Of a DNA stretch of 37,731 bases, positions 26,472-37,731 are shown piece after piece. The DNA comes from Gammaproteobacteria bacterium (GTDB taxonomy: Bacteria > Pseudomonadota > Gammaproteobacteria > Steroidobacterales > JABDMI01). Under the pieces are notes generated by a model. The model was not told the origin of the DNA, searched no databases, and saw nothing but the letters and a program-made list of their open reading frames with translations. The stretch spans positions 1 through 37,731 of the forward strand of contig JABDMI010000049.1 in assembly GCA_013001575.1 (NCBI GenBank). Direction: 5' to 3'. Both the position numbers and the translations under genes were made by a program. Position 1 is the stretch's first letter. Every line of letters starts with the position of its first letter.

Positions 26472-27716
26472 TCAGTTAAAACGTTTCAGGATAAGTGTGC
26501 CGTTAGTGCCGCCAAAACCAAATGAATTATTCATGGCCTGGTCAATTTTCATTGAGCGCGCTGCATTTGGCACATAATCAAGATCACAAAGCGGATCAGG
26601 ATTTGCATAGTTAATAGTTGGAGGCGCAACCTGGTCACGCAATGCCAGTGCTGTAAAAATTGCCTCTACCGAACCAGCCGCACCTAATAAATGACCGGTC
26701 ATGGACTTGGTCGAGCTGACTGCCAGTTTATAGGCATGTTCTGAAAAGGCACCTTTGACCGCATCTGTTTCAGCTTTATCGCCTACCGGTGTAGACGTGC
26801 CATGTGCATTTATGTAATCAATACTTTCCGGCGCAACACCCGCATCACGCATCGCCGCTTGCATACATCGTTTGGCGCCATCACCATTCTCTGGTGGTGC
26901 CGTCATATGGTGTGCATCACCACTCATTCCGAAACCGGTGACTTCTGCGTATATTTTTGCACCACGTTTTTTGGCGTGTTCAAGTTCTTCCAATACCAAA
27001 ATGCCGGCTCCGGAACCCATGACAAAGCCATCGCGTTCGGCGTCCCAAGGACGACTTGCAGCTTCAGGATCATCGTTGCGTGTTGATAATGCCCGCATGG
27101 CACCAAAGCCGCCCAAGCCTAATTCTGTCATGGCACTTTCCGCACCACCGGCGATCATCACATCGCACTCGCCGTATTGAATGCTACGGGTCGCAAGACC
27201 AATGCTGTGAGTGCCCGTAGTACAGGCTGTAACCAATGCCAGATTCGGGCCTTTGATGCCGTAACGAATGGAAAGTTCGCCGGCGATCATGTTGATAATG
27301 CTACCTGGAATAAAGAAAGGTGAAATTCTTCGCGGGGAGCCATTTTTATTCAGGATCAAGGTGTTTTTTTCTATCGCACCTAGACCACCAATACCGGAGC
27401 CAATAATAAGACCACTGCGCTCTGCCAATTCACCTTCAAAGTTCAGTCCCGAGTCCTGAATGGCATCCATCCCTGCTGCAATGCCCAAATGCACAAAAGG
27501 ATCGAGCTTACGAGACTCTTTGCTGTTGAGATATTTTTCAACATCAAAACCGGAAACCTCACCGCCAATTTTGGCTGGATAGTTCTCGACATCAAATGCT
27601 TCGATTCGGGAGATTCCACTACGTCCGTTTTGAATTGCATCCCAGGCAGAATCCAGAGTGGATCCAACTGGAGAAACTATTCCCATTCCGCTAATTACTA
27701 CACGACGTTTAGACAT
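26472..27716 (-). CDS. fabF: 3-oxoacyl-ACP synthase II
   Basis: This 414-residue condensing enzyme elongates acyl-ACP with malonyl-ACP. The Cys-His-His triad is present: Cys165 in [10 protein letters not shown], His305 in [11 protein letters not shown] and His342 in [12 protein letters not shown]. The C-terminal [13 protein letters not shown] motif is intact. The length and triad fit FabF rather than FabB or FabH. It lies downstream of acpP, separated by 143 bases that contain an intrinsic terminator-like hairpin (27792-27823), so part of its expression may depend on read-through or a promoter of its own. Confidence 0.95.
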
Positions 27717-27791
27717 AATTCACCTTTAACTTCTGTGCTGTTCAAAATACTTGGAATTACAATTGTAAATTGATTAAATCGACTCACATAT

Positions 27792-27823
27792 AAAAACCGT
27801 CGCAACTTATGCAGTTACAACGG
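27792..27823 (-). terminator. Terminator or attenuator hairpin between acpP and fabF
   Basis: In the minus-strand RNA, arms 27813-27823 and 27797-27807 pair over 11 bases (two G-U pairs) with a 5-base loop, followed by a run of U from 27796 to 27792. This is a typical Rho-independent shape, placed so that acpP can be expressed above fabF. Confidence 0.65.
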
Positions 27824-27859
27824 CTTCAAATTCTGTAACAAACAGGGTTTAGCTGGTTA

Positions 27860-28093
27860 TTAACTCGAATGACTTTTTACGTAATCAATTGCCAATTGAA
27901 TGGTTGTGATCTTTTCAGCTTCTTCGTCAGGAATTTCTGTATCAAATTCTTCTTCGAGAGCCATCACCAATTCAACTGTATCAAGTGAATCTGCACCCAG
28001 ATCATCCACAAAAGAAGCATCGTTGTTTAATTGATCTTCTTTAACACCTAACTGTTCTGCGACAATTTTCTTGACGCGTTCTTCTATACTCAT
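27860..28093 (-). CDS. acpP: Acyl carrier protein
   Basis: This 77-residue acidic protein carries growing acyl chains on a phosphopantetheine arm attached to Ser36 in the motif [10 protein letters not shown]. The sequence is nearly canonical for AcpP ([15 protein letters not shown] start). It lies between fabG and fabF as in most gammaproteobacteria, with gaps of 129 and 143 bases, both larger than elsewhere in this unit. The upstream gap contains a possible promoter and a 5' hairpin, and the downstream gap a terminator-like hairpin, which fits high separate expression of this abundant protein. Confidence 0.97.
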
Positions 28094-28124
28094 TGAGTTA
28101 TATCCTCTGCTATTAATAAAATCA

Positions 28125-28152
28125 GCAAAATTCCTTACGAGGGTAATTTTGC
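28125..28152 (-). other. Hairpin in the acpP 5' leader
   Basis: GCAAAATT (28125-28132) and AATTTTGC (28145-28152) pair over 8 bases, extended by two G-C pairs across a bulged A. If transcription starts near 28153, as the candidate -10 suggests, the hairpin forms the very 5' end of the acpP RNA and could protect it from decay. It has no U-run, so it is not a terminator. Confidence 0.4.
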
Positions 28153-28159
28153 AGCGCGT

Positions 28160-28165
28160 ATTGTA
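28160..28165 (-). promoter_or_regulatory. Candidate extended -10 of an acpP promoter
   Basis: On the minus strand the sequence reads TGATACAAT: a TACAAT -10 (5 of 6) preceded by an extended TGn. The -35 region is poor. It would start an RNA about 60 bases upstream of acpP, inside the fabG-acpP gap where E. coli also has an acpP promoter. Confidence 0.35.
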
Positions 28166-28222
28166 TCAGGAAATACAGGCACTGCATGGCATAAAATCAA
28201 ACGCTTGTATGATTAAAACCAA

Positions 28223-28969
28223 TTAAATCATATACATACCACCATTCACATGCAGGGTTTCACCCGTAATATAGCCTGCTTCGTCAGAACACAAGAAACA
28301 GACTGCGTTGGCTATATCCGCGACTTGCCCCATTCTGGCCAACGGGATCTGAGACAATAAGCCCGAAGTCTGTTCATCATTCAATGCGTCGGTCATGTCT
28401 GTTTGAATATAGCCAGGAGCTACAGTATTGACCGTAATGCCTCTCGAACCAACCTCTCGCGCCATGGATTTGGCAAAACCCGCCATTCCAGCTTTAGCGG
28501 CTGCGTAGTTGCTTTGTCCGGCATTTCCCATGCTCCCTACGACCGACGAAATATTTACAATACGGCCGCTTCTGGCCTTCATCATGCCGCGTAAACAGGC
28601 CTTACTGGTCCGGTAAACGGAACTGAGGTCTGTGTTGATAATATCGGACCATTCTTCCTCAGACATACGTAATAGCAAGTTATCCCGAGTGATTCCCGCG
28701 TTATTGACCAGGATTTGAGGAGCTCCCTCTTGTGATGATATCTCCTTGACCAGTTTTTGCACTGCATCATTATCTCTGACATCCAAAATTGCACCCCGAC
28801 CAGTTATTGCTTTATCACTAAAAAGTGCCGAAATATTATCTGCCCCTTTTTGCGAGGTCGCAGTACCGATCACAGTTGCTCCGCCCGCCCCAAGAGCATT
28901 GGCGATTGCGGCTCCAATGCCCCTGGAAGCGCCAGTGACTAATGCTATTTTGTTACTAAAATCATGCAT
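28223..28969 (-). CDS. fabG: 3-oxoacyl-ACP reductase
   Basis: This 248-residue short-chain dehydrogenase reduces 3-oxoacyl-ACP with NADPH. The cofactor motif is TGASRGIG (12-19), the NNAG motif is at 89-92, and the catalytic residues are a Ser in NISSVVG (about 141-142), Tyr155 and Lys159 in SNYAAAKAG. The C-terminal GYITGETLHVNGGMYM is the standard FabG ending. It lies 35 bases after fabD. The ATG at 28969 is directly followed by CATGAT, and a second in-frame Met is not near, so the start is secure. Confidence 0.96.
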   Translation of the reverse strand: MHDFSNKIALVTGASRGIGAAIANALGAGGATVIGTATSQKGADNISALFSDKAITGRGAILDVRDNDAVQKLVKEISSQEGAPQILVNNAGITRDNLLLRMSEEEWSDIINTDLSSVYRTSKACLRGMMKARSGRIVNISSVVGSMGNAGQSNYAAAKAGMAGFAKSMAREVGSRGITVNTVAPGYIQTDMTDALNDEQTSGLLSQIPLARMGQVADIANAVCFLCSDEAGYITGETLHVNGGMYMI

Positions 28970-29004
28970 GGTGTGTAATCCTGTTTATAAAATTTATTTT
29001 GACC

Positions 29005-29982
29005 TTACGCTTTGCCAGCAAATGCTTCTTGTAGAATCAGTAAACTATTGTTATCAAACAATGGAAAAGCCGTAAGGTCTCTGGAAATTCTTTTTTGAAG
29101 ACCGCTCAATACTTTACCGGGGCCACATTCAATTATTATTTTAGTACCCGATGCTTGTATTTTTTGCATGGACTCAACCCAACGCACTGGATTATGCAAT
29201 TGCCTGACCAGCACTTTTTTAATGTCTGTTACCTCGCGATGTGTTTCTACATCAGTGTTATGAATTACAGGTATCGATGGCACATTGAATTCTATTGAAT
29301 CTAGCCGGTTGGCCAGTCGCTTTGCCGCCGGAATCATCAACTGACAATGCGATGGCACACTGACTGGCAAGGGCAAAACGCGACGTGCGCCTGATTCTTT
29401 GAGTACCTCTTGGGCTTTTTCAACCGCAGCTTTTTCGCCGGCAATCACGACTTGGCCAGGGGCATTGAAATTCACCGCTTCTACGATCCCTACTTCGGCA
29501 GCCATTGCACAACCCTGTACGACCTCTTCATCGTTCAATCCCAAGATCGCTGCCATAGCGCCTGTGCCCGCTGGTACCGCATCTTGCATGCATTGACCGC
29601 GATATTCAACCAGCTGCAATGCATCACCAAAACTCAATACCCCAGCCGCAACAAGAGCCGAATACTCTCCCAGACTATGACCAGCCAAATACGCAGGTAA
29701 CTTTAAGTTATTGCTTTTACAGTGTTGTAGCCATACACGCCATGCCAGCACGCCGGCAATCAACATGGCCGGTTGTGTTATTTCAGTCTGGTTTAATTTC
29801 TCAAGCGGGCCAGATTGAATAATTCCACCAATATCATAGCCGAGACATTCATCGGCCTCTTGCAATATATTATCGAGTAACTCTGAATGTCCAGACCATC
29901 CATCGAGCATAGCCAGACTTTGCGAACCTTGTCCGGGAAATACCACAGCATAATTATGAGATGAGTTTTCAGGATTAGTCAT
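29005..29982 (-). CDS. fabD: Malonyl-CoA:ACP transacylase
   Basis: This encodes 325 residues from the ATG at 29982. The open frame extends 45 codons further, but that part overlaps the rhombosortase gene and does not resemble the family, whereas YAVVFPGQGSQ near residue 11 is the usual FabD start. The nucleophile Ser103 lies in GHSLGEYSALVA, with conserved QPAMLIAG, MQDAVPAGTGAMAAILGL and VSVPSHC segments. FabD loads malonyl groups onto ACP. The gene begins 7 bases after the rhombosortase stop. The fabH, plsX and rpmF genes that commonly lie upstream are missing at this locus. Confidence 0.95.
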   Translation of the reverse strand: MTNPENSSHNYAVVFPGQGSQSLAMLDGWSGHSELLDNILQEADECLGYDIGGIIQSGPLEKLNQTEITQPAMLIAGVLAWRVWLQHCKSNNLKLPAYLAGHSLGEYSALVAAGVLSFGDALQLVEYRGQCMQDAVPAGTGAMAAILGLNDEEVVQGCAMAAEVGIVEAVNFNAPGQVVIAGEKAAVEKAQEVLKESGARRVLPLPVSVPSHCQLMIPAAKRLANRLDSIEFNVPSIPVIHNTDVETHREVTDIKKVLVRQLHNPVRWVESMQKIQASGTKIIIECGPGKVLSGLQKRISRDLTAFPLFDNNSLLILQEAFAGKA

Positions 29983-29989
29983 ATTATTC

Positions 29990-30628
29990 TCATTTGTTAG
30001 AATGGGTGAATTTGAACAGAAATAAGGCCCAGATACAACCGGTAATTGCACCATATAAATGGGCGTTAATAACAACTGACCCACCACTTGCGGACTGTGT
30101 GAATGGCAATGACCCAATTATTTGCTCATACACAAGCTTGCCCACAAGCCCTGTGAATAACACAAAATCTTCAACTCCAAATTCTGAAGTGAATTTATAG
30201 ATTCGTTTGAGCAATGAAAACCCTAGTGCGCTGGCAAGCAGACCATGCAATACTCCTGACATACCTAAATACCATTGCAATTCCGGATAGAAAACCATCA
30301 AACTCAAAGAAACGCCAAAACACAGCACGAGAAAACTTGCGAGCCAGATTTTTACAGTAAAGCAGTCAGCGTACATGAGAAAGATCAAAACAAGCGCAAG
30401 CGCATTGACAATAAAATGACTCCAGCCCAAATGAACCAGATGTGCTGTCATCAACCGCCAATATTCATGGTTAACATGAAAATCGGATTGATAACGTAAG
30501 AGTTGTCGTCCCGCATCACCCTGAAATTCGAAACCTACGCCAACTGCGAGGAGAAAACCGCAAAAAAGCCATACCATCTTGTTTGATGTCATCGCAATAG
30601 GACCCCTTACTTTGCTGCCATAACCCAT
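29990..30628 (-). CDS. rrtA: Rhombosortase (rhomboid-family intramembrane serine protease)
   Basis: This 212-residue membrane protein has about six hydrophobic segments. It has the rhomboid catalytic serine in GMSGVLHG (Ser124), the catalytic histidine in NAHLYGAITG (His190), and the HxxxN motif in WSHFIVNALAL (His71, Asn75). The compact size and the EYWRLMTAHLVHLGWSH and KLVYEQ segments fit the rhombosortase branch, which processes proteins with a C-terminal GlyGly-CTERM anchor before type II secretion. A later in-frame ATG at 30592 is an alternative start. It is the first gene of the minus-strand fab unit, 7 bases before fabD, and is divergent from gspG across 96 bases. Confidence 0.88.
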   Translation of the reverse strand: MGYGSKVRGPIAMTSNKMVWLFCGFLLAVGVGFEFQGDAGRQLLRYQSDFHVNHEYWRLMTAHLVHLGWSHFIVNALALVLIFLMYADCFTVKIWLASFLVLCFGVSLSLMVFYPELQWYLGMSGVLHGLLASALGFSLLKRIYKFTSEFGVEDFVLFTGLVGKLVYEQIIGSLPFTQSASGGSVVINAHLYGAITGCIWALFLFKFTHSNK

Positions 30629-30645
30629 TTATAGTTTCCAAGTAT

Positions 30646-30676
30646 TTTTCATATGTGCTGAACTATTTGCTATCAT
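30646..30676 (+). promoter_or_regulatory. Weak candidate gspG promoter
   Basis: TTTTCA (30646-30651) and TATCAT (30671-30676) are spaced by 19 bases, longer than ideal. The -10 is preceded by TGC, an extended -10. It lies in the 96-base gap between the divergent rhombosortase and gspG genes. Confidence 0.3.
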
Positions 30677-30724
30677 ACCAGCCTAATTAAAGGTATTTTT
30701 TTAGATTACAAAAGCAGAGAAATC

Positions 30725-31168
30725 ATGAATCGTAAAATCATCAATTCGCAAAAAACCAATTATGGATTTACCCTGATTGAAATGTTAGTTGTTGTAGCCA
30801 TAATGGCCACATTAATGGCGCTGATTGCTCCAAGATTCATTGAAAGGGCAGAAGAGGCAAAAGTGACTGCAACTGTTGCACAACTTCAACAGATCTCTAC
30901 TGCTCTAGATATGTATAAACTCGACAACTCGACATATCCAACTATTGATCAAGGACTCCAAGCCCTTGTAGAAAAACCTTTCGGCAGTCCAGAACCCAAG
31001 AACTGGAAACATTATCTGAATGAAGTACCCCTAGATGCCTGGAAAAATGAAATTTATTATGTTTATCCAGGTGAGCATGGAGTCTATGACCTCTACAGTC
31101 TTGGCGCGGATGGTCAGCAAGGGGGCGAAGGATCGAACGCAGATATTGGAAACTGGACCCAAAATTAA
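30725..31168 (+). CDS. gspG: Type II secretion major pseudopilin GspG
   Basis: This 147-residue major pseudopilin builds the periplasmic pseudopilus that pushes substrates through the outer-membrane secretin. The prepilin leader ends at Gly14, just before FTLIEMLVVVAIMA, with the Glu at mature position 5. The mature part has the family segments KVTATVAQLQQISTALDMYKLD, YPTIDQGLQALVEKP, DAWKN and the calcium-loop region YDLYSLGADGQQGGEG. It is the first gene of the plus-strand set gspG to gspM. No gspC, gspD, gspE or gspF precedes it; upstream lies the divergent rhombosortase. Confidence 0.95.
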   Translation: MNRKIINSQKTNYGFTLIEMLVVVAIMATLMALIAPRFIERAEEAKVTATVAQLQQISTALDMYKLDNSTYPTIDQGLQALVEKPFGSPEPKNWKHYLNEVPLDAWKNEIYYVYPGEHGVYDLYSLGADGQQGGEGSNADIGNWTQN

Positions 31169-31213: not shown

Positions 31214-31762
31214 ATGACACGAATGTCAAATATCAGATCAGGTTTTACCCTGATCGAATTTCTTACCGTAATTGTGATTCTCGCAGTCGTTGCTGGAATG
31301 GTGAGTATTGCAATTCAAGGCGATCCAAATCGCCTATTGGAAAATTCTGCGCGTAAATTCATAGCCGAATTTAATTTAGTTACTGAAGAGTCCGCATTAC
31401 TCGGAAATGAGTATGGCTTGCAAATAAATGACAATGCCTACCGTTATCTGCATTGGGATCAAATCAAATGGCAAACACCACAAGATCCTGCGATGGCGAC
31501 ATTACTATACTTTCCGGACGAAATCACTCCCGAACTAATTCTGGATCAAAACTCGGTATTGTATTTAGAAACAGAAGACAATCAAGGCATTGATTTCAGC
31601 GAGAATGAAAAAGAAATTGAACCACCTCAGGTATTAGTACTCTCAAGTGGAGAAGTTACCCCCTTTACCTTAATACTCAGAACTGTATACAACGATGACT
31701 ATATTTCTATTGATATTGACAGTCTCGGACGTGTAAAACTCACGTTTCATAATGAAATTTGA
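31214..31762 (+). CDS. gspH: Type II secretion minor pseudopilin GspH
   Basis: This 182-residue minor pseudopilin has its leader cleavage after SG, before FTLIEFLTVIVILAVVAGMV, with Glu at mature position 5. The body has SARKFIAEFNLVTEESALLGNEYGLQI, a typical GspH segment (length given here in parts), and a beta-rich C-terminus. It is thought to be part of the pseudopilus tip. A second ATG three codons downstream (31223) is an alternative start. It ends 11 bases inside the start of gspI, so the two are translationally coupled. Confidence 0.85.
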   Translation: MTRMSNIRSGFTLIEFLTVIVILAVVAGMVSIAIQGDPNRLLENSARKFIAEFNLVTEESALLGNEYGLQINDNAYRYLHWDQIKWQTPQDPAMATLLYFPDEITPELILDQNSVLYLETEDNQGIDFSENEKEIEPPQVLVLSSGEVTPFTLILRTVYNDDYISIDIDSLGRVKLTFHNEI

Positions 31763-32225
31763 TCGTTCCAAAGGTTTTACGCTCATTGAAGTGGTTGTCG
31801 CCACCTTCATTGTCGGTTTGGCGCTGGTCGCACTGGCTGGAACTGTACAAAATTTGACCCGACAAACCAGTCTGGTTAAAGAAAAATACGTTGCCGACCT
31901 GGTTGCAAATAATGTGCTTGCCGAGCTACGACTCGCCGGCCAATGGCCAGAAATTGGCGAAAACAGTGATGTAGTTGAAATGGCTAGCCAAAGCTGGTTT
32001 TACGACACTAAAGTTTTTGCAACGGATGTAGAGCAATTACGGCGCATTGAGGTCAGCGTGGGTCTGGATGATGAGCTTAAGCAGACTCGCGCAACTTTGA
32101 TAGGATTTATCAGTTCCAGCCCAACCGTGACGGCGCAACCTGTTGAGTGGGTTAAATCTCAAGAACAAGATAATCAAGCGAGATTTCCTGACGATTTAAA
32201 CCCGCTACAAAATTCTGGGAATTAA
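31752..32225 (+). CDS. gspI: Type II secretion minor pseudopilin GspI
   Basis: This 157-residue protein has a short basic leader ending KG before FTLIEVVVATFIVGLALVAL, and then the GspI-type segment YVADLVANNVLAELRL. GspI starts the tip complex with GspJ and GspK. The C-terminal tail (after residue 120) is longer than in the E. coli and Vibrio proteins and rich in polar residues. It overlaps gspH by 11 bases and ends 7 bases before gspJ. Confidence 0.88.
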   Translation: MKFDRSKGFTLIEVVVATFIVGLALVALAGTVQNLTRQTSLVKEKYVADLVANNVLAELRLAGQWPEIGENSDVVEMASQSWFYDTKVFATDVEQLRRIEVSVGLDDELKQTRATLIGFISSSPTVTAQPVEWVKSQEQDNQARFPDDLNPLQNSGN

Positions 32226-32232
32226 TAATCGC

Positions 32233-32943
32233 ATGCAACCCAAATCATTACATCGCAATATTGTAAAACTGGCTCCAAACATATCTGGTTTCACCTTATT
32301 GGAAATACTACTCGCTGTGTTTATCTTTGCATTAATATCTATCGGAGCTTATAAAGTTTCCAGCATTTCACAACAAAGCGCTGAGCTCATGCTTAATGCA
32401 CAAAACAGGTTGCGAGATGTGAGCATCAGTTTGGAAATGATCGAAAAAGATTTTACCCAAATATCCGCCAGAAACTGGCGCGACCCATTTAGTAATTTAT
32501 ATAACTCGTCGCTTTCTACTGATCCGTCTGAGGCATACGTCGTGCAATTAGTACGCGGTGGCTGGAAAAATCCATTGAATATTGCACGCTCGGAGTTGCA
32601 ATTAGTTCGATACCGTTTACAAGATAAAGTCTTAATTAGAGAGCATGCGCTGCATGTAGACAACCTCGGTTCACTGGAATTCACCAAGACTGAGTTAGTG
32701 ACAAATGTAAATTCTATTAGTCTTACATTTTTCGATCAAATCAAGCGTAGTGATGCAAATCAGGCAGCTGACACTAATAAATGGCCCCCGATAAGCAACA
32801 ATCCAGCTCCCACTCAAAATAGTGACGGCTCTAATGTACCCTTACCATCCTACCCCTTACCGATTGCAGTTGAAATCAGACTAGACTTAGAAGATTATGG
32901 TGAAATCTCTAAAATTATCAATCTACCTCCTGCCGGCGCATGA
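32233..32943 (+). CDS. gspJ: Type II secretion minor pseudopilin GspJ
   Basis: This 236-residue protein has its leader cleaved before FTLLEILLAVFIFALISIGAY. The leader is about 20 residues, longer than usual. The GspJ-like body includes EMIEKDFTQISARNWRD and a beta-rich region with LVRGGWKNPLN and LQLVRYRL. Near the C-terminus there is a Pro/Asn/Ser-rich insertion (about 176-205). GspJ joins GspI and GspK at the pseudopilus tip. The stop codon is followed one base later by the preferred ATG of gspK. Confidence 0.88.
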   Translation: MQPKSLHRNIVKLAPNISGFTLLEILLAVFIFALISIGAYKVSSISQQSAELMLNAQNRLRDVSISLEMIEKDFTQISARNWRDPFSNLYNSSLSTDPSEAYVVQLVRGGWKNPLNIARSELQLVRYRLQDKVLIREHALHVDNLGSLEFTKTELVTNVNSISLTFFDQIKRSDANQAADTNKWPPISNNPAPTQNSDGSNVPLPSYPLPIAVEIRLDLEDYGEISKIINLPPAGA

Positions 32944-32944
32944 C

Positions 32945-33952
32945 ATGAATTTTAATTATGTAAATATAAATCGCCAAAAACAAAATGGCGTTGCGCTTAT
33001 AGTAATTCTATTGATTGTAGCAATCGTTGCTGCGCTCGCAACACAAATGCACTGGCAACACCGCATTAGCTTGAAGCGAATCGATAACCTGTCTACGCTT
33101 TCCCAAGCTCGACAATATGCAATTGGTGGAGAGAACTGGGCCAGAGAAATATTGCTGGAAGACCTTAAAGAGTCTACAAATGACAATTTAAAAGAACTTT
33201 GGGCGGAACCATTACCACCCTTACCTATTGAAGGAGGGGCAATTCAAGGTCAAATGTATGATTTACAATCCCGTTTTAATTTAAATAATCTGATATCAAA
33301 AGACGGCAAGATAAATAGAGATTCTGTTGCACAATTTAAACGATTATTACGATCCCTTGAGATTGATGAAAATTATGCAGTAAGTATTGCTGATTGGATT
33401 GATTCTGATAATTATCCGGAATTTCCCGGGGGCGCTGAAGACTCAAGTTACAGTTCATTACCAGTTCCCTATCTGACGGCAAATCAGTACATCACAGATA
33501 TATCTGAATTGATGAACATTAAAGACATGAACAAATCCGTATATCAGCAATTGAAGCCATTTGTTGCTGCATTACCGGTTGAGACCTCAATTAATATAAA
33601 CACAGCCAGCGCAGAAGTCCTGGTCTCTATCAATCAACAAATAAGTACCAGTGATATAGACTCAATTATTAGTTCAAGAGAATCCAGCCCTTTTGAGTCT
33701 GTTGATGAATTTTATCGAATGCTCAATTTAGATAAACCCGACAATTCCGATGCACTTGATATTCAAAGCGAATATTTTTTAACTGAAGTTGAAGTATTAT
33801 TGCATGATAAAATATACAGACGTCATATTTATCTTTTTAGAGACTCACAATCAGGAAGCGTAAGCGCTTATCAGTATACACACTCGCCAACTGCGTTAAA
33901 TATTGAGCAAAACAACAATGATCAGAACAACTCGAAAATTGAATCCGGTTAA
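32945..33952 (+). CDS. gspK: Type II secretion minor pseudopilin GspK
   Basis: The preferred start is the ATG at 32945, giving 335 residues. An in-frame ATG at 32897 lies inside gspJ and would add 16 residues that do not fit a prepilin leader. From 32945 the leader is short and polar and ends NG before VALIVILLIVAIVAALAT. As in other GspK proteins, Glu5 is absent from the mature N-terminus. Conserved segments are RIDNLSTLSQARQYAIGGENWA, LQSRFNLNNLI and two helix-hairpin-helix-like stretches (ININTASAEVLVS and IISSRESSPFESVDEF). GspK caps the pseudopilus. Confidence 0.9.
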   Translation: MNFNYVNINRQKQNGVALIVILLIVAIVAALATQMHWQHRISLKRIDNLSTLSQARQYAIGGENWAREILLEDLKESTNDNLKELWAEPLPPLPIEGGAIQGQMYDLQSRFNLNNLISKDGKINRDSVAQFKRLLRSLEIDENYAVSIADWIDSDNYPEFPGGAEDSSYSSLPVPYLTANQYITDISELMNIKDMNKSVYQQLKPFVAALPVETSININTASAEVLVSINQQISTSDIDSIISSRESSPFESVDEFYRMLNLDKPDNSDALDIQSEYFLTEVEVLLHDKIYRRHIYLFRDSQSGSVSAYQYTHSPTALNIEQNNNDQNNSKIESG

Positions 33953-33959
33953 ATAGAAT

Positions 33960-35180
33960 ATGAAACACTACATCTTTTTAACAGAAAATAAATCAAACCG
34001 TGGAATATATTTATACCTGCGTAAGAATATTATCGTGCACGAGCCACATGAGTTGAATATTGGTGAAATCTCCTCAATACCAAATGATGAAAAGCTTTGC
34101 CTGGTTTTGAGTGATCAACTTGTATCAAAATTTAATTTACAACTAAAAGCAAAAAATCAATCGCAGTTACTGAAAGCAGCAAGTTTTGCAATCGAAGAAA
34201 AACTTCCTGAAAGGATAGATAATTATCACGTCGTTATTCACAAAAGTTCAAGTGATAAAGTGTGGGTACGCGCGATTAAGAGAATAAAACTTGAGCAAAT
34301 TCTGAAGCAATTACAAGAGCATAATCTGACTCCAGATTCGGTAATTGTTGAATCCGATTTATTTGCAAAAACAACACCTGCGCTATTATTCAATTCTACT
34401 GAAGCAACACTTTGTGGCGCGGACCTTCCACAAAGCTACCAATTTGATGCGTCACTTGTACCCATGATAAGTCAAAAAATATATGGCTTACTAGATGCAA
34501 AGAATGAAATACAATTAATTTACACAGAAACAAACCAACTACAAGTTGAGGCTTTTGAAAATCAGTCTCCAGAAAATATTCGCATTAAGAAAATAATTAA
34601 AAATGATGAATATTACAAAACCATATGTAGGCAAGATGAATCTGCAGTAAATTTGCTGCAAGGCGATTTCGCAAGTCAAGCTGTCACAGGACCCGATGAA
34701 TCAATCTGGAAATACCCGGCTTGGTTAGCTTTAGCAGGAATACTTATTAGCAGTGGAAGTCTAATTGCACAAAACCTGATTCAAAATAACCGAATTTCCA
34801 AACAAGAAATAAAAATAAAAGAACAATATGCATATTTATTCCCTGATGCGAGCAAACCCTCTTCTCTAATAGATTTGCAAAATAAAATTAAAATCAAAAA
34901 AAAGCAATTTAATAGCCAAAGTAATAAAACTTCAATGCCAATCGACCCATTAACCTTATTCGATCTTTTTGCTAACATTTCAAAAACTTCAAGCATGCAA
35001 ATATTGGGTATTAATATTGATCAAAATCTGGCTGAAATTTTAATTTCTGCTAATGATGTAGATTCACTTAATAAAGTAAAATCAATTATTGAAAAACAAC
35101 TCCCCGATGGAATTAGTATGTCTATGGATTCAATAAATGCGAAAAATGATGTGTACCACGGTAAAATAGTCATTAGATAA
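33960..35180 (+). CDS. gspL: Type II secretion inner-membrane protein GspL
   Basis: This 406-residue protein has a cytoplasmic actin-like domain (about 1-245) that would bind the ATPase GspE. It ends with the family motif NLLQGDF. One transmembrane helix follows (about 253-273, WLALAGILISSGSLIAQNL), and then a periplasmic ferredoxin-like domain. The sequence is rich in Lys, Asn and Ile, and the DNA is clearly more AT-rich than the fad region. It follows gspK by 7 bases and precedes gspM by 12. GspE itself is not in the window. Confidence 0.85.
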   Translation: MKHYIFLTENKSNRGIYLYLRKNIIVHEPHELNIGEISSIPNDEKLCLVLSDQLVSKFNLQLKAKNQSQLLKAASFAIEEKLPERIDNYHVVIHKSSSDKVWVRAIKRIKLEQILKQLQEHNLTPDSVIVESDLFAKTTPALLFNSTEATLCGADLPQSYQFDASLVPMISQKIYGLLDAKNEIQLIYTETNQLQVEAFENQSPENIRIKKIIKNDEYYKTICRQDESAVNLLQGDFASQAVTGPDESIWKYPAWLALAGILISSGSLIAQNLIQNNRISKQEIKIKEQYAYLFPDASKPSSLIDLQNKIKIKKKQFNSQSNKTSMPIDPLTLFDLFANISKTSSMQILGINIDQNLAEILISANDVDSLNKVKSIIEKQLPDGISMSMDSINAKNDVYHGKIVIR

Positions 35181-35192
35181 TGGAATTGAATA

Positions 35193-35651
35193 ATGAATAA
35201 TTTAAAAGAATATTTTCATCAATTGGAATCGCGCGAAAAATTAATATTAATAATTGCGATGGTATTAATCCTGACAGTGGTCTTTAAATTATTCATTTTT
35301 GATACACTTAGCAATCAGCAAATAAACCTATCAAAGCGTGCATCACTGGCAGCAAATTTACAATCAGAGATAGCTAAAATTACCACTAAACCATTGGCAG
35401 CAAATGCACAGCAAGAATCAAATTTGTTAATAAATGATTATCTAAAAAACCATGCGATAACAGGCAAGATCAAGCAAATTAGAAATACTGCTAAAGGTGA
35501 AAAACAATTAGAAATTGAAGGTATTGTTTTCGAAAATTTGGTTAGCTTGCTGGACATATTGCAAAATAATGACACACAATTGTCTGGATTACAGATCAAG
35601 TCGAACACTAGCCCAGGTACAGTAAATGCAACATTAACTTTCGCAAACTAA
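35193..35651 (+). CDS. gspM: Type II secretion inner-membrane protein GspM
   Basis: This 152-residue protein has the GspM layout: a short cytoplasmic start with YFHQLESREKLIL, one transmembrane helix (about 17-35), then a coiled and ferredoxin-like periplasmic domain. GspM pairs with GspL. Sequence conservation in this family is low, so the call leans on its position after gspL and on the topology. No gspN follows; instead a minus-strand sensor gene converges with only 19 bases between the stop codons and no visible terminator. Confidence 0.83.
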   Translation: MNNLKEYFHQLESREKLILIIAMVLILTVVFKLFIFDTLSNQQINLSKRASLAANLQSEIAKITTKPLAANAQQESNLLINDYLKNHAITGKIKQIRNTAKGEKQLEIEGIVFENLVSLLDILQNNDTQLSGLQIKSNTSPGTVNATLTFAN

Positions 35652-35670: not shown

Positions 35671-37731
35671 TTATTTCGTTAGACTATCAAGATAAATTCC
35701 ACTCACAGATAATATTTCAACACTTTGTTTAACTTGTAAATTTGTATTTTTTGTTAAATCTGCTTCACTCAGTAGTGTCAAAAGACTTTTGGTATATTTG
35801 CTCAACATCTCAGATCCAACCTCGCCAAGGTACACTATAAATTTATCATTTTTTCGAGATTTTTCTACGTATGTTGCAACTACATGGTGACCAAAAATAT
35901 ATTTTATTTGATCGCCAAATCCTAATAGCTGAATTCGCTTAAGCAAATTATTACCGCGAAATTGATTTCGATCTATTGCAAATTCAAGTAATTTTATATC
36001 TGCTCCAACAATTTCTGCTCTTTCTATTTCGTCCCTCAATATTTGTATAAATGCTTCTGTATTATGTAAACCTGTTACCGAATTAAAATAATCATTCCAG
36101 TTGTACCTTTGCTTGTCAATTATTGCTTGCTGCATGCTTACCATCTGTAAAAAAAGCATATCAATATCAGATTCAATTGCACTTAGCAACTTAACATCAC
36201 GTTTTTGTATAAACAATTGTGCCAAGGTGGTTTGCGAGATTAATTCCTTCTTGTGCAGAATTCTATCTATATCTTGTAAAACCCCTACGGAAATCTCAAA
36301 AGATGTGCCATTAAGTTGCTGTTGATATCTTAAATAATCACAACCGGATATAAAACATAATTGATCAAGAAACTTACGAACGATTGTTTGATATGAATTT
36401 AATTTGGTCAGATCTGTTGCATACTTATTATAGTTATTTATAAATGCTTCTTTATTCTTTTGCACAATTGCAATACTTTTTCTTTTTTGACGATTTTGCG
36501 CATAGAAATATATATACCCAAAAAAAGTGATAAAACTCGCAAAGTAAAGTAAATATGCAAGTTGTGATTTCCAAAATGGAGGTGATATTGAAAATATTAA
36601 TGATATTTCAGTTGGGCTTTGCAATTGATTCGCATTAAAGGCTCTTAACTTAAATTCATATTGCCCGCTATTCAAATTAGTATATGAAACATTGTTTTCG
36701 TTTGTCTTTTCACTCCATGATTTATCAAACCCACTTAGCTGATATTGAAAACGATTTGAACGTGGTGACTTAAAATCCATATAAGAAAAACCAAAGCGCA
36801 AACTATTTTCATTATATGAAAGTTTAGTTCCAGATTTAATTTTTCTTAATAAGTTTGGTTCGCCACTTACATTCAACAATTTAACCGATCGCATGCGAGG
36901 AGTAATATTGTTTAATATTGGTATCTCAATGTCGCTATCAAATACATTAAATCCTTTGTCGCCACCAAAATACAAGCGTGAATTTTCAACATCGTGGTAA
37001 GAAGATTTTTGAATATTAATACTGTTAAATACCCCATCTTCCTTTACAAAATAATCAAACGTAGACAAGTCTTTTTTCGATGCTTTTAGTAATCCATTCG
37101 TCGTGCTTAACCAAAAATATCCATTTGCTTCTTCAATGGATAAAATATTATTGTCGGGAAATTCACTGTATTCAACTAAAATTTTTTCGGATGTAACGCG
37201 ATATAATCCGCGTTCTGTTGCAATCCAAGCATGACCTTCTTTGTCAAAGTAAAAGTCATTAATTGCAAATGATAAACGGCTCATTAACTTATTATTTAAT
37301 AATGAATTATTAGTAAGTTCTTTATTATCATCTGAAAATGAAATAACTTGCCCGCCACGAGGATATCCAAGCCATAAGGTATTTTCACGGGCATTATATT
37401 CCATAGCCACTATCCAGTTATCGTTCAACGCATTAATCTCAGACTCACTATTAAAAACATTTACAGCTTCAAAAGTTTTTTTATCCACAACGATTAACCC
37501 GTAAAAGGTACCTATGTATAAATATTTATCCGAAATCGCCATATCTAAAACAGATGTTTCAATATCAAATATATTATTTAAGTTATTAGTCAATATATAA
37601 GTTAAATCTGTAATTACTCCTGTTTCATGTAATTGATAAAGTCCACTTGCTGTGCCTATTAGTAATTTTTCATTATTAACTAATAATTTATAAGCTAATT
37701 TATACTGATTTTTTACGAGAACGGGTGATAG
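35671..37731 (-). CDS. Beta-propeller membrane sensor with degenerate GGDEF-like end (5' part missing)
   Basis: The frame is open from the stop at 35671 to the right edge (686 residues seen), so the true start lies outside. A TTG at 37593 is not a convincing start, because propeller-type sequence (LIGTASGLYQL) continues upstream of it. Order of parts: propeller repeats of the two-component-regulator type (several IGT, GLY and W-containing blades), then a Y_Y_Y domain (about 36795-36570: LSGFDKSW, YTNLNSGQYEFKLRA), one transmembrane helix (about 36555-36480), a helical region, and a GGDEF-like domain starting SVTGLHNTEAF. At the expected GGDEF site it reads YLGEVGSEM, so cyclase activity is unlikely. 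The role is probably periplasmic ligand sensing; the ligand is unknown. The coding DNA is very AT-rich. Confidence 0.82.
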   Translation of the reverse strand, partial: LSPVLVKNQYKLAYKLLVNNEKLLIGTASGLYQLHETGVITDLTYILTNNLNNIFDIETSVLDMAISDKYLYIGTFYGLIVVDKKTFEAVNVFNSESEINALNDNWIVAMEYNARENTLWLGYPRGGQVISFSDDNKELTNNSLLNNKLMSRLSFAINDFYFDKEGHAWIATERGLYRVTSEKILVEYSEFPDNNILSIEEANGYFWLSTTNGLLKASKKDLSTFDYFVKEDGVFNSINIQKSSYHDVENSRLYFGGDKGFNVFDSDIEIPILNNITPRMRSVKLLNVSGEPNLLRKIKSGTKLSYNENSLRFGFSYMDFKSPRSNRFQYQLSGFDKSWSEKTNENNVSYTNLNSGQYEFKLRAFNANQLQSPTEISLIFSISPPFWKSQLAYLLYFASFITFFGYIYFYAQNRQKRKSIAIVQKNKEAFINNYNKYATDLTKLNSYQTIVRKFLDQLCFISGCDYLRYQQQLNGTSFEISVGVLQDIDRILHKKELISQTTLAQLFIQKRDVKLLSAIESDIDMLFLQMVSMQQAIIDKQRYNWNDYFNSVTGLHNTEAFIQILRDEIERAEIVGADIKLLEFAIDRNQFRGNNLLKRIQLLGFGDQIKYIFGHHVVATYVEKSRKNDKFIVYLGEVGSEMLSKYTKSLLTLLSEADLTKNTNLQVKQSVEILSVSGIYLDSLTK

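Follow-up and report, generated by a model that had tools for sequence, protein, structure and literature searches.

Why a rhombosortase gene should stand between type II secretion genes and fatty-acid synthesis genes, and whether it belongs functionally to one side or to both, is the question raised by this locus. The locus lies in a window of 37,731 nt, the whole stretch of DNA that was analysed. The open reading frame at 29,990–30,628 on the minus strand begins with ATG and encodes 212 amino acids of a rhomboid-family intramembrane serine protease. It matched the rhombosortase model TIGR03902 at 128.5 bits (2.1e-37), compared to the curated cut-off of 84 bits that was used for rhombosortase calls, and the Pfam Rhomboid model at 48.2 bits. 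Ser124 (in LGMSGV) and His190 aligned with the rhomboid active site and were invariant in 15 aligned relatives, and the rhombosortase profile matched GlpG structures over the GxSG region. Simple hydropathy gave six hydrophobic segments and showed no large N-terminal cytoplasmic domain. The product is a bona fide rhombosortase, as an earlier sequence-only reading of this DNA had proposed. The coordinates also agreed with that reading on the placement of the gene, which is divergent from gspG across 96 bp (a putative divergent promoter region at 30,629–30,724) and ends 7 bp before the fabD start codon (TGA-GAATAAT-ATG).

On one side of the rhombosortase gene, and head to head with it, gspG at 30,725–31,168 on the plus strand encodes the major pseudopilin of the type II secretion system (TIGR01710, 171 bits). 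It is followed on the same strand by gspH, gspI, gspJ, gspK, gspL and gspM at 31,214–35,651, assigned by NCBIfam models for gspH to gspL and by Pfam T2SSM for gspM, and the pseudopilin operon gspG–K with gspL and gspM is complete in the window. The canonical order of the operon is gspC-D-E-F-G-H-I-J-K-L-M. The window retains gspG-H-I-J-K-L-M intact and in this order, but the operon is split before gspG, with rhombosortase at the break, and gspD-E-F are not on this contig. No GspD above its cut-off was found in the window's own assembly (G000; 2.25 Mb in 132 contigs, 96% complete). A single secretin was detected there (G000:C90:22026-23303); it is PilQ and was rejected as GspD. At the end of the contig, and running towards gspM, a gene at 35,671–37,593 on the minus strand encodes a 640-aa protein with a Reg_prop propeller and Y_Y_Y domains, and Pfam gave no match to a kinase domain in it.

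On the other side, and on the minus strand, lie fabD (malonyl-CoA:ACP transacylase, 29,005–29,982; TIGR00128, 342.5 bits), fabG (28,223–28,969; NF004197, 383 bits), acpP (acyl carrier protein, 27,860–28,093) and fabF (26,472–27,716; TIGR03150, 648 bits). The acpP reading frame was assigned from sequence and position, and the order fabD-fabG-acpP is kept in relatives. Further downstream come pabB, pabC, mltG, tmk and holB, and several of the names in this series rest on sequence and position only. The usual fatty-acid operon reads yceD-rpmF-plsX-fabH-fabD-fabG-acpP-fabF. The window has fabD-fabG-acpP-fabF and then pabB to holB in the usual order, but upstream of fabD stands rhombosortase instead, fabH is on contig C127 close to a yceD-like gene, and plsX was not found in the genome. 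The remark that rhombosortase stands where plsX or fabH would normally be was thus fair, because fabH is elsewhere and no plsX was found. Most relatives have plsX, but it was not found in five genomes, the three from the genus of the window and two of 6–7 Mb from family f9 (G000, G001, G002, G010 and G023). In relatives with a fabD-less fab operon, a divergent malonyl transferase is encoded elsewhere (L284–L295) and scored 188–242 bits, under the TIGR00128 cut-off, which suggests repeated displacement of the canonical FabD.

Across 63 loci, about 14 nt (median) separate the rhombosortase stop from the fabD start, an operon-like spacing, and rhombosortase and fabD are likely to be co-transcribed. 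In the window, the 17-nt element ATAGCAAATAGTTCAGC at 30,657–30,673 on the minus strand lies beside the extended -10-like TGGTATGAT. The same 17 nt were found exactly, at the same place between gspG and rhombosortase, in a genome of the same genus (G002), where 0.06–0.17 matches with up to three mismatches were expected by chance. The rhombosortases of the two genomes are only 45% identical, and the shared element despite this divergence indicates a promoter upstream of rhombosortase that would also serve the fab genes. The pair ATAGCAAATAGTTCAGC/TGGTATGAT is the probable promoter or start region of a rhombosortase-fab operon; a search for ATAGCAAATAGTTCAGC around fabH in the window's own genome found no copy. 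The co-transcription with the fab genes that the earlier reading implied is made probable by this spacing and this element. The comparison with G002 also gave a lead to a second start: the 3′ end of rhombosortase (30,002–30,049, minus strand) has unusually conserved codons, with 34 of 36 nt identical in the best window, from codon 197, where the median was 19 (permutation p about 0.04). Because these last codons are conserved at the nucleotide level, they may possibly hold an internal fabD promoter. A sigma-70 scan of 27,700–30,760 gave 14 promoter-like sites when 7.2 were expected and was uninformative, and terminator-like sites in the same interval were at chance level.

When the window's own genome was scanned for GlyGly-CTERM tails, as the sequence-only reading had proposed, one protein (G000:C39:22993-23055) exceeded the cut-off of TIGR03501, a short model on which all such counts rest and which may miss tails. 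Because this is one clear match, the genome does not lack a GlyGly-CTERM protein, the absence of which would have counted against that reading. The tail of the protein is NSGGGSIGLYSLFLLSLVAIRKK and its C-terminal end is NSGGGSIGLYSLFLLSLVAIRKKYVFKINNEDLTED; it has a DTDGDG-rich repeat region, with a weak TSP3 match below the Pfam cut-off. The protein is predicted to be a substrate of the rhombosortase of its own genome. The two genes are not adjacent, as the target is on contig C39 and rhombosortase on C49, and further targets could have been missed or be unassembled. On the targets found, the genome does not fit a dedicated single-target system, in which the target gene would adjoin rhombosortase. 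In two genomes of the same genus, the GlyGly-CTERM tail was carried by M36 metallopeptidases with PA and PKD domains, and orthologues of these peptidases were not found in the window's own assembly. Across the order, significant tails were present in 13 of the 41 genomes with rhombosortase above the cut-off and in none of 17 without it (Fisher p 0.006; placing the 73%-complete G001 among the genomes that lack rhombosortase gives 0.04).

The junction was compared in 59 genomes of the order, including the window's own. Woeseiaceae belong to this order and were recognised as family f7 by their position in the tree and by identical sequences; a Steroidobacteraceae genome with a name grouped with family f11. 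This comparison of related genomes, also proposed earlier, showed rhombosortase above the cut-off in 41 of the 59, and in 38 of these carriers it lies directly before fabD or fabG in the same orientation and order. The next gene is fabD in 33 genomes (24 from fetched loci and 9 by coordinates) and fabG in five (G004, G022, G029, G035 and G040), and nearly all fetched loci of the order have a divergent gspG on the other side. Dozens of genomes in more than 10 families have the junction, a conservation far beyond chance. In three genomes (G051, G057 and G058) rhombosortase is elsewhere. There are 15 genomes without rhombosortase at the junction in which gspG is head to head with fabD (G012, G013, G026, G057 and G058) or with fabG (G007, G014, G016, G021, G027, G034, G038, G044, G051 and G054), and therefore the gsp/fab neighbourhood is independent of rhombosortase. 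A concatenated tree with 91 rows required seven changes for rhombosortase presence and eight for fabD presence, and presence and absence of rhombosortase were mixed within families f11, f12 and f15, where the gene was, most simply, lost or moved more than once. Displaced rhombosortase genes adjoin type IV pilus genes with a PilE-like pilin in G058 (L246, contig C28) and G051 (L248, contig C38), and the one in G058 lies about 11 nt before an ispH-like gene.

In a sample of the class, 132 of 370 genomes were rhombosortase-positive, and neighbours were read from 105 loci, with tallies in G+C-rich loci based on the longest open reading frames, which may miss genes. A divergent gspG was the recurrent neighbour, next to rhombosortase in 38 of the 105 loci (36%) and in many families. 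Nine of these 38, assigned to other orders of the class, have the arrangement gsp-rhombosortase-fabD-fabG (L089, L102, L106, L116, L123, L129, L130, L131 and L135). A gspF that converges on rhombosortase was seen in eight loci (L051, L076, L082, L083, L084, L096, L104 and L221), of which seven belong to the class sample and the eighth is a named record; this gives gspD-E-F facing rhombosortase and gspG-H-I-J-K leading away from it. In those of the loci that were read further, gspE and then the secretin gene gspD lie behind gspF, and rhombosortase therefore sits inside an otherwise canonical gsp operon, antisense between gspF and gspG. The tie to the secretion operon that had been read from the window was borne out by the divergent gspG in many families and by this embedding in eight loci, and a link between rhombosortase and type II secretion is supported.

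We consider it likely that rhombosortase belongs to the type II secretion locus and that the fab operon was joined behind it by an old, inherited rearrangement rather than for a joint function; a link to lipid function is not required. Rhombosortase would cleave secreted proteins at a C-terminal GlyGly-CTERM, and the products would become lipid-linked and be handed to the type II secretion system. We infer an order of events in which the gene entered a canonical gsp operon between gspF and gspG, making a place divergent from gspG its primary home, and in which the gsp locus later broke beside it. In an ancestor of the order, and it seems of certain neighbouring orders as well, a rearrangement would then have put fabD-fabG-acpP-fabF directly behind rhombosortase, which became the first gene of the fab operon and probably shared its promoter. 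Several later losses or moves of rhombosortase would have left gspG facing fabD or fabG. The direction from a gspF-adjacent to a fab-adjacent state rests on the canonical gsp order and on parsimony. We propose that rhombosortase kept its place because the gsp genes and the essential fab genes stayed head to head with the promoter upstream of rhombosortase, and not for a role in fatty-acid synthesis. A bolder version, which we hold tentatively and think rather unlikely, is that the antisense rhombosortase between gspF and gspG is a component of one type II secretion lineage, a rhombosortase-equipped subclass, and that the later capture of the fab genes co-regulated surface anchoring and membrane synthesis throughout the order.

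The fab linkage could also have arisen by repeated, independent insertion of rhombosortase into a permissive and well-expressed divergent gsp/fab junction. A tree of rhombosortase, built from a short alignment, took 16 changes for fab linkage and recovered no single origin, as repeated insertion would predict; it was rejected as proof of one origin, being too weak. In the class, rhombosortase also has a number of different housekeeping genes as neighbours, and in G058 it has ispH- and pilE-type genes. However, repeated insertion does not readily account for an orientation and gene order shared by 38 of 41 genomes, nor for the same gspG-divergent orientation where no fab genes are present. Distances between rhombosortases also correlated with those between GspG proteins (Mantel correlation 0.64, versus 0.32 for rhombosortase and FabG), and the correlation with GspG was 0.72 in loci with gspG only. 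We regard repeated insertion as improbable.

A functional coupling between the two sides would hold that the anchoring of GlyGly-CTERM proteins consumes phosphatidylethanolamine and gains from co-expression with fatty-acid synthesis. The retention of the junction through the whole order with operon-like spacing would fit such a coupling, but the gsp and fab genes remain head to head in the 15 genomes without rhombosortase at this spot. Elsewhere in the class, gspG-rhombosortase pairs precede genes for a GST-type (sspA-like) protein with SspB, or for YicC, RecG or chorismate lyase (UbiC), or they face gspF, and the lipid demand of a few anchored proteins would be tiny compared to that of membrane synthesis. 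Rhombosortase copies with neither a gspG nor a fab neighbour had a gene for a GlnD-type protein (ACT/HD domain) upstream in about 20 of 73 cases, which is a second conserved housekeeping neighbourhood of rhombosortase. Downstream of unlinked copies, EamA genes were found in 8 of 76 and subtilase genes in 4 of 76, and no recurrent fatty-acid or phospholipid gene was found beside unlinked copies in the class sample. Lipid synthesis was rejected as the reason for the linkage on this last ground. The meaningful tie to lipid synthesis that had been suggested earlier thus found no support, given gsp and fab genes head to head without rhombosortase and gspG-rhombosortase pairs before unrelated housekeeping genes, and we judge functional coupling very unlikely. 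The other suggestion made then, that the gene was inserted here by chance alone and its position means nothing beyond this genome, has next to no probability, with the junction conserved across the order and present in nine loci of other orders of the class.

In Vibrio cholerae, rhombosortase (RssP) cuts after the GlyGly-CTERM signal and the product becomes joined to a moiety that contains glycerophosphoethanolamine; the cleaved protein goes to the type II secretion system and is kept at the surface (PMC6219818). The earlier description of targets as membrane-anchored before release matches part of this mechanism but omits the glycerophosphoethanolamine conjugation and the retention at the surface. 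Haft and Varghese (2011) found that rhombosortase co-occurs with type II secretion, tied it to no subclass, and found it next to its target only in single-target genomes (PMC3237569). In the searches made, these two papers report adjacency to single target genes and no link to a gsp operon or to fab genes. The window's genome has in common with the described system the family model, the residues of the active site, a GlyGly-CTERM protein (one found) and genes for type II secretion. It differs in that rhombosortase is divergent from gspG and heads a fab operon, and in that the one target found is not adjacent. Myxosortase and MYXO-CTERM likewise combine C-terminal sorting, an intramembrane protease and surface delivery via type II secretion, but Myxosortase belongs to the unrelated CPBP protease family and its signal contains cysteine (PMC11980579). 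No paper treating both rhombosortase and fabD was found in the open-access literature. The enzyme is known; the gsp-rhombosortase-fab neighbourhood is apparently undescribed. Gene order now ties rhombosortase physically to type II secretion, where the 2011 survey had co-occurrence only, and a predicted step, the passing of proteins from rhombosortase to the secretion apparatus, becomes testable in named gene sets. A conserved neighbour can also mislead: linkage to the fab genes is conserved to the same degree, yet its best reading is a rearrangement passed on by descent. A separate arrangement was seen in G010, in which a second rhombosortase adjoins a gene for a secreted 716-aa protein (L256, G010:C93) and looks like a dedicated enzyme-target pair.
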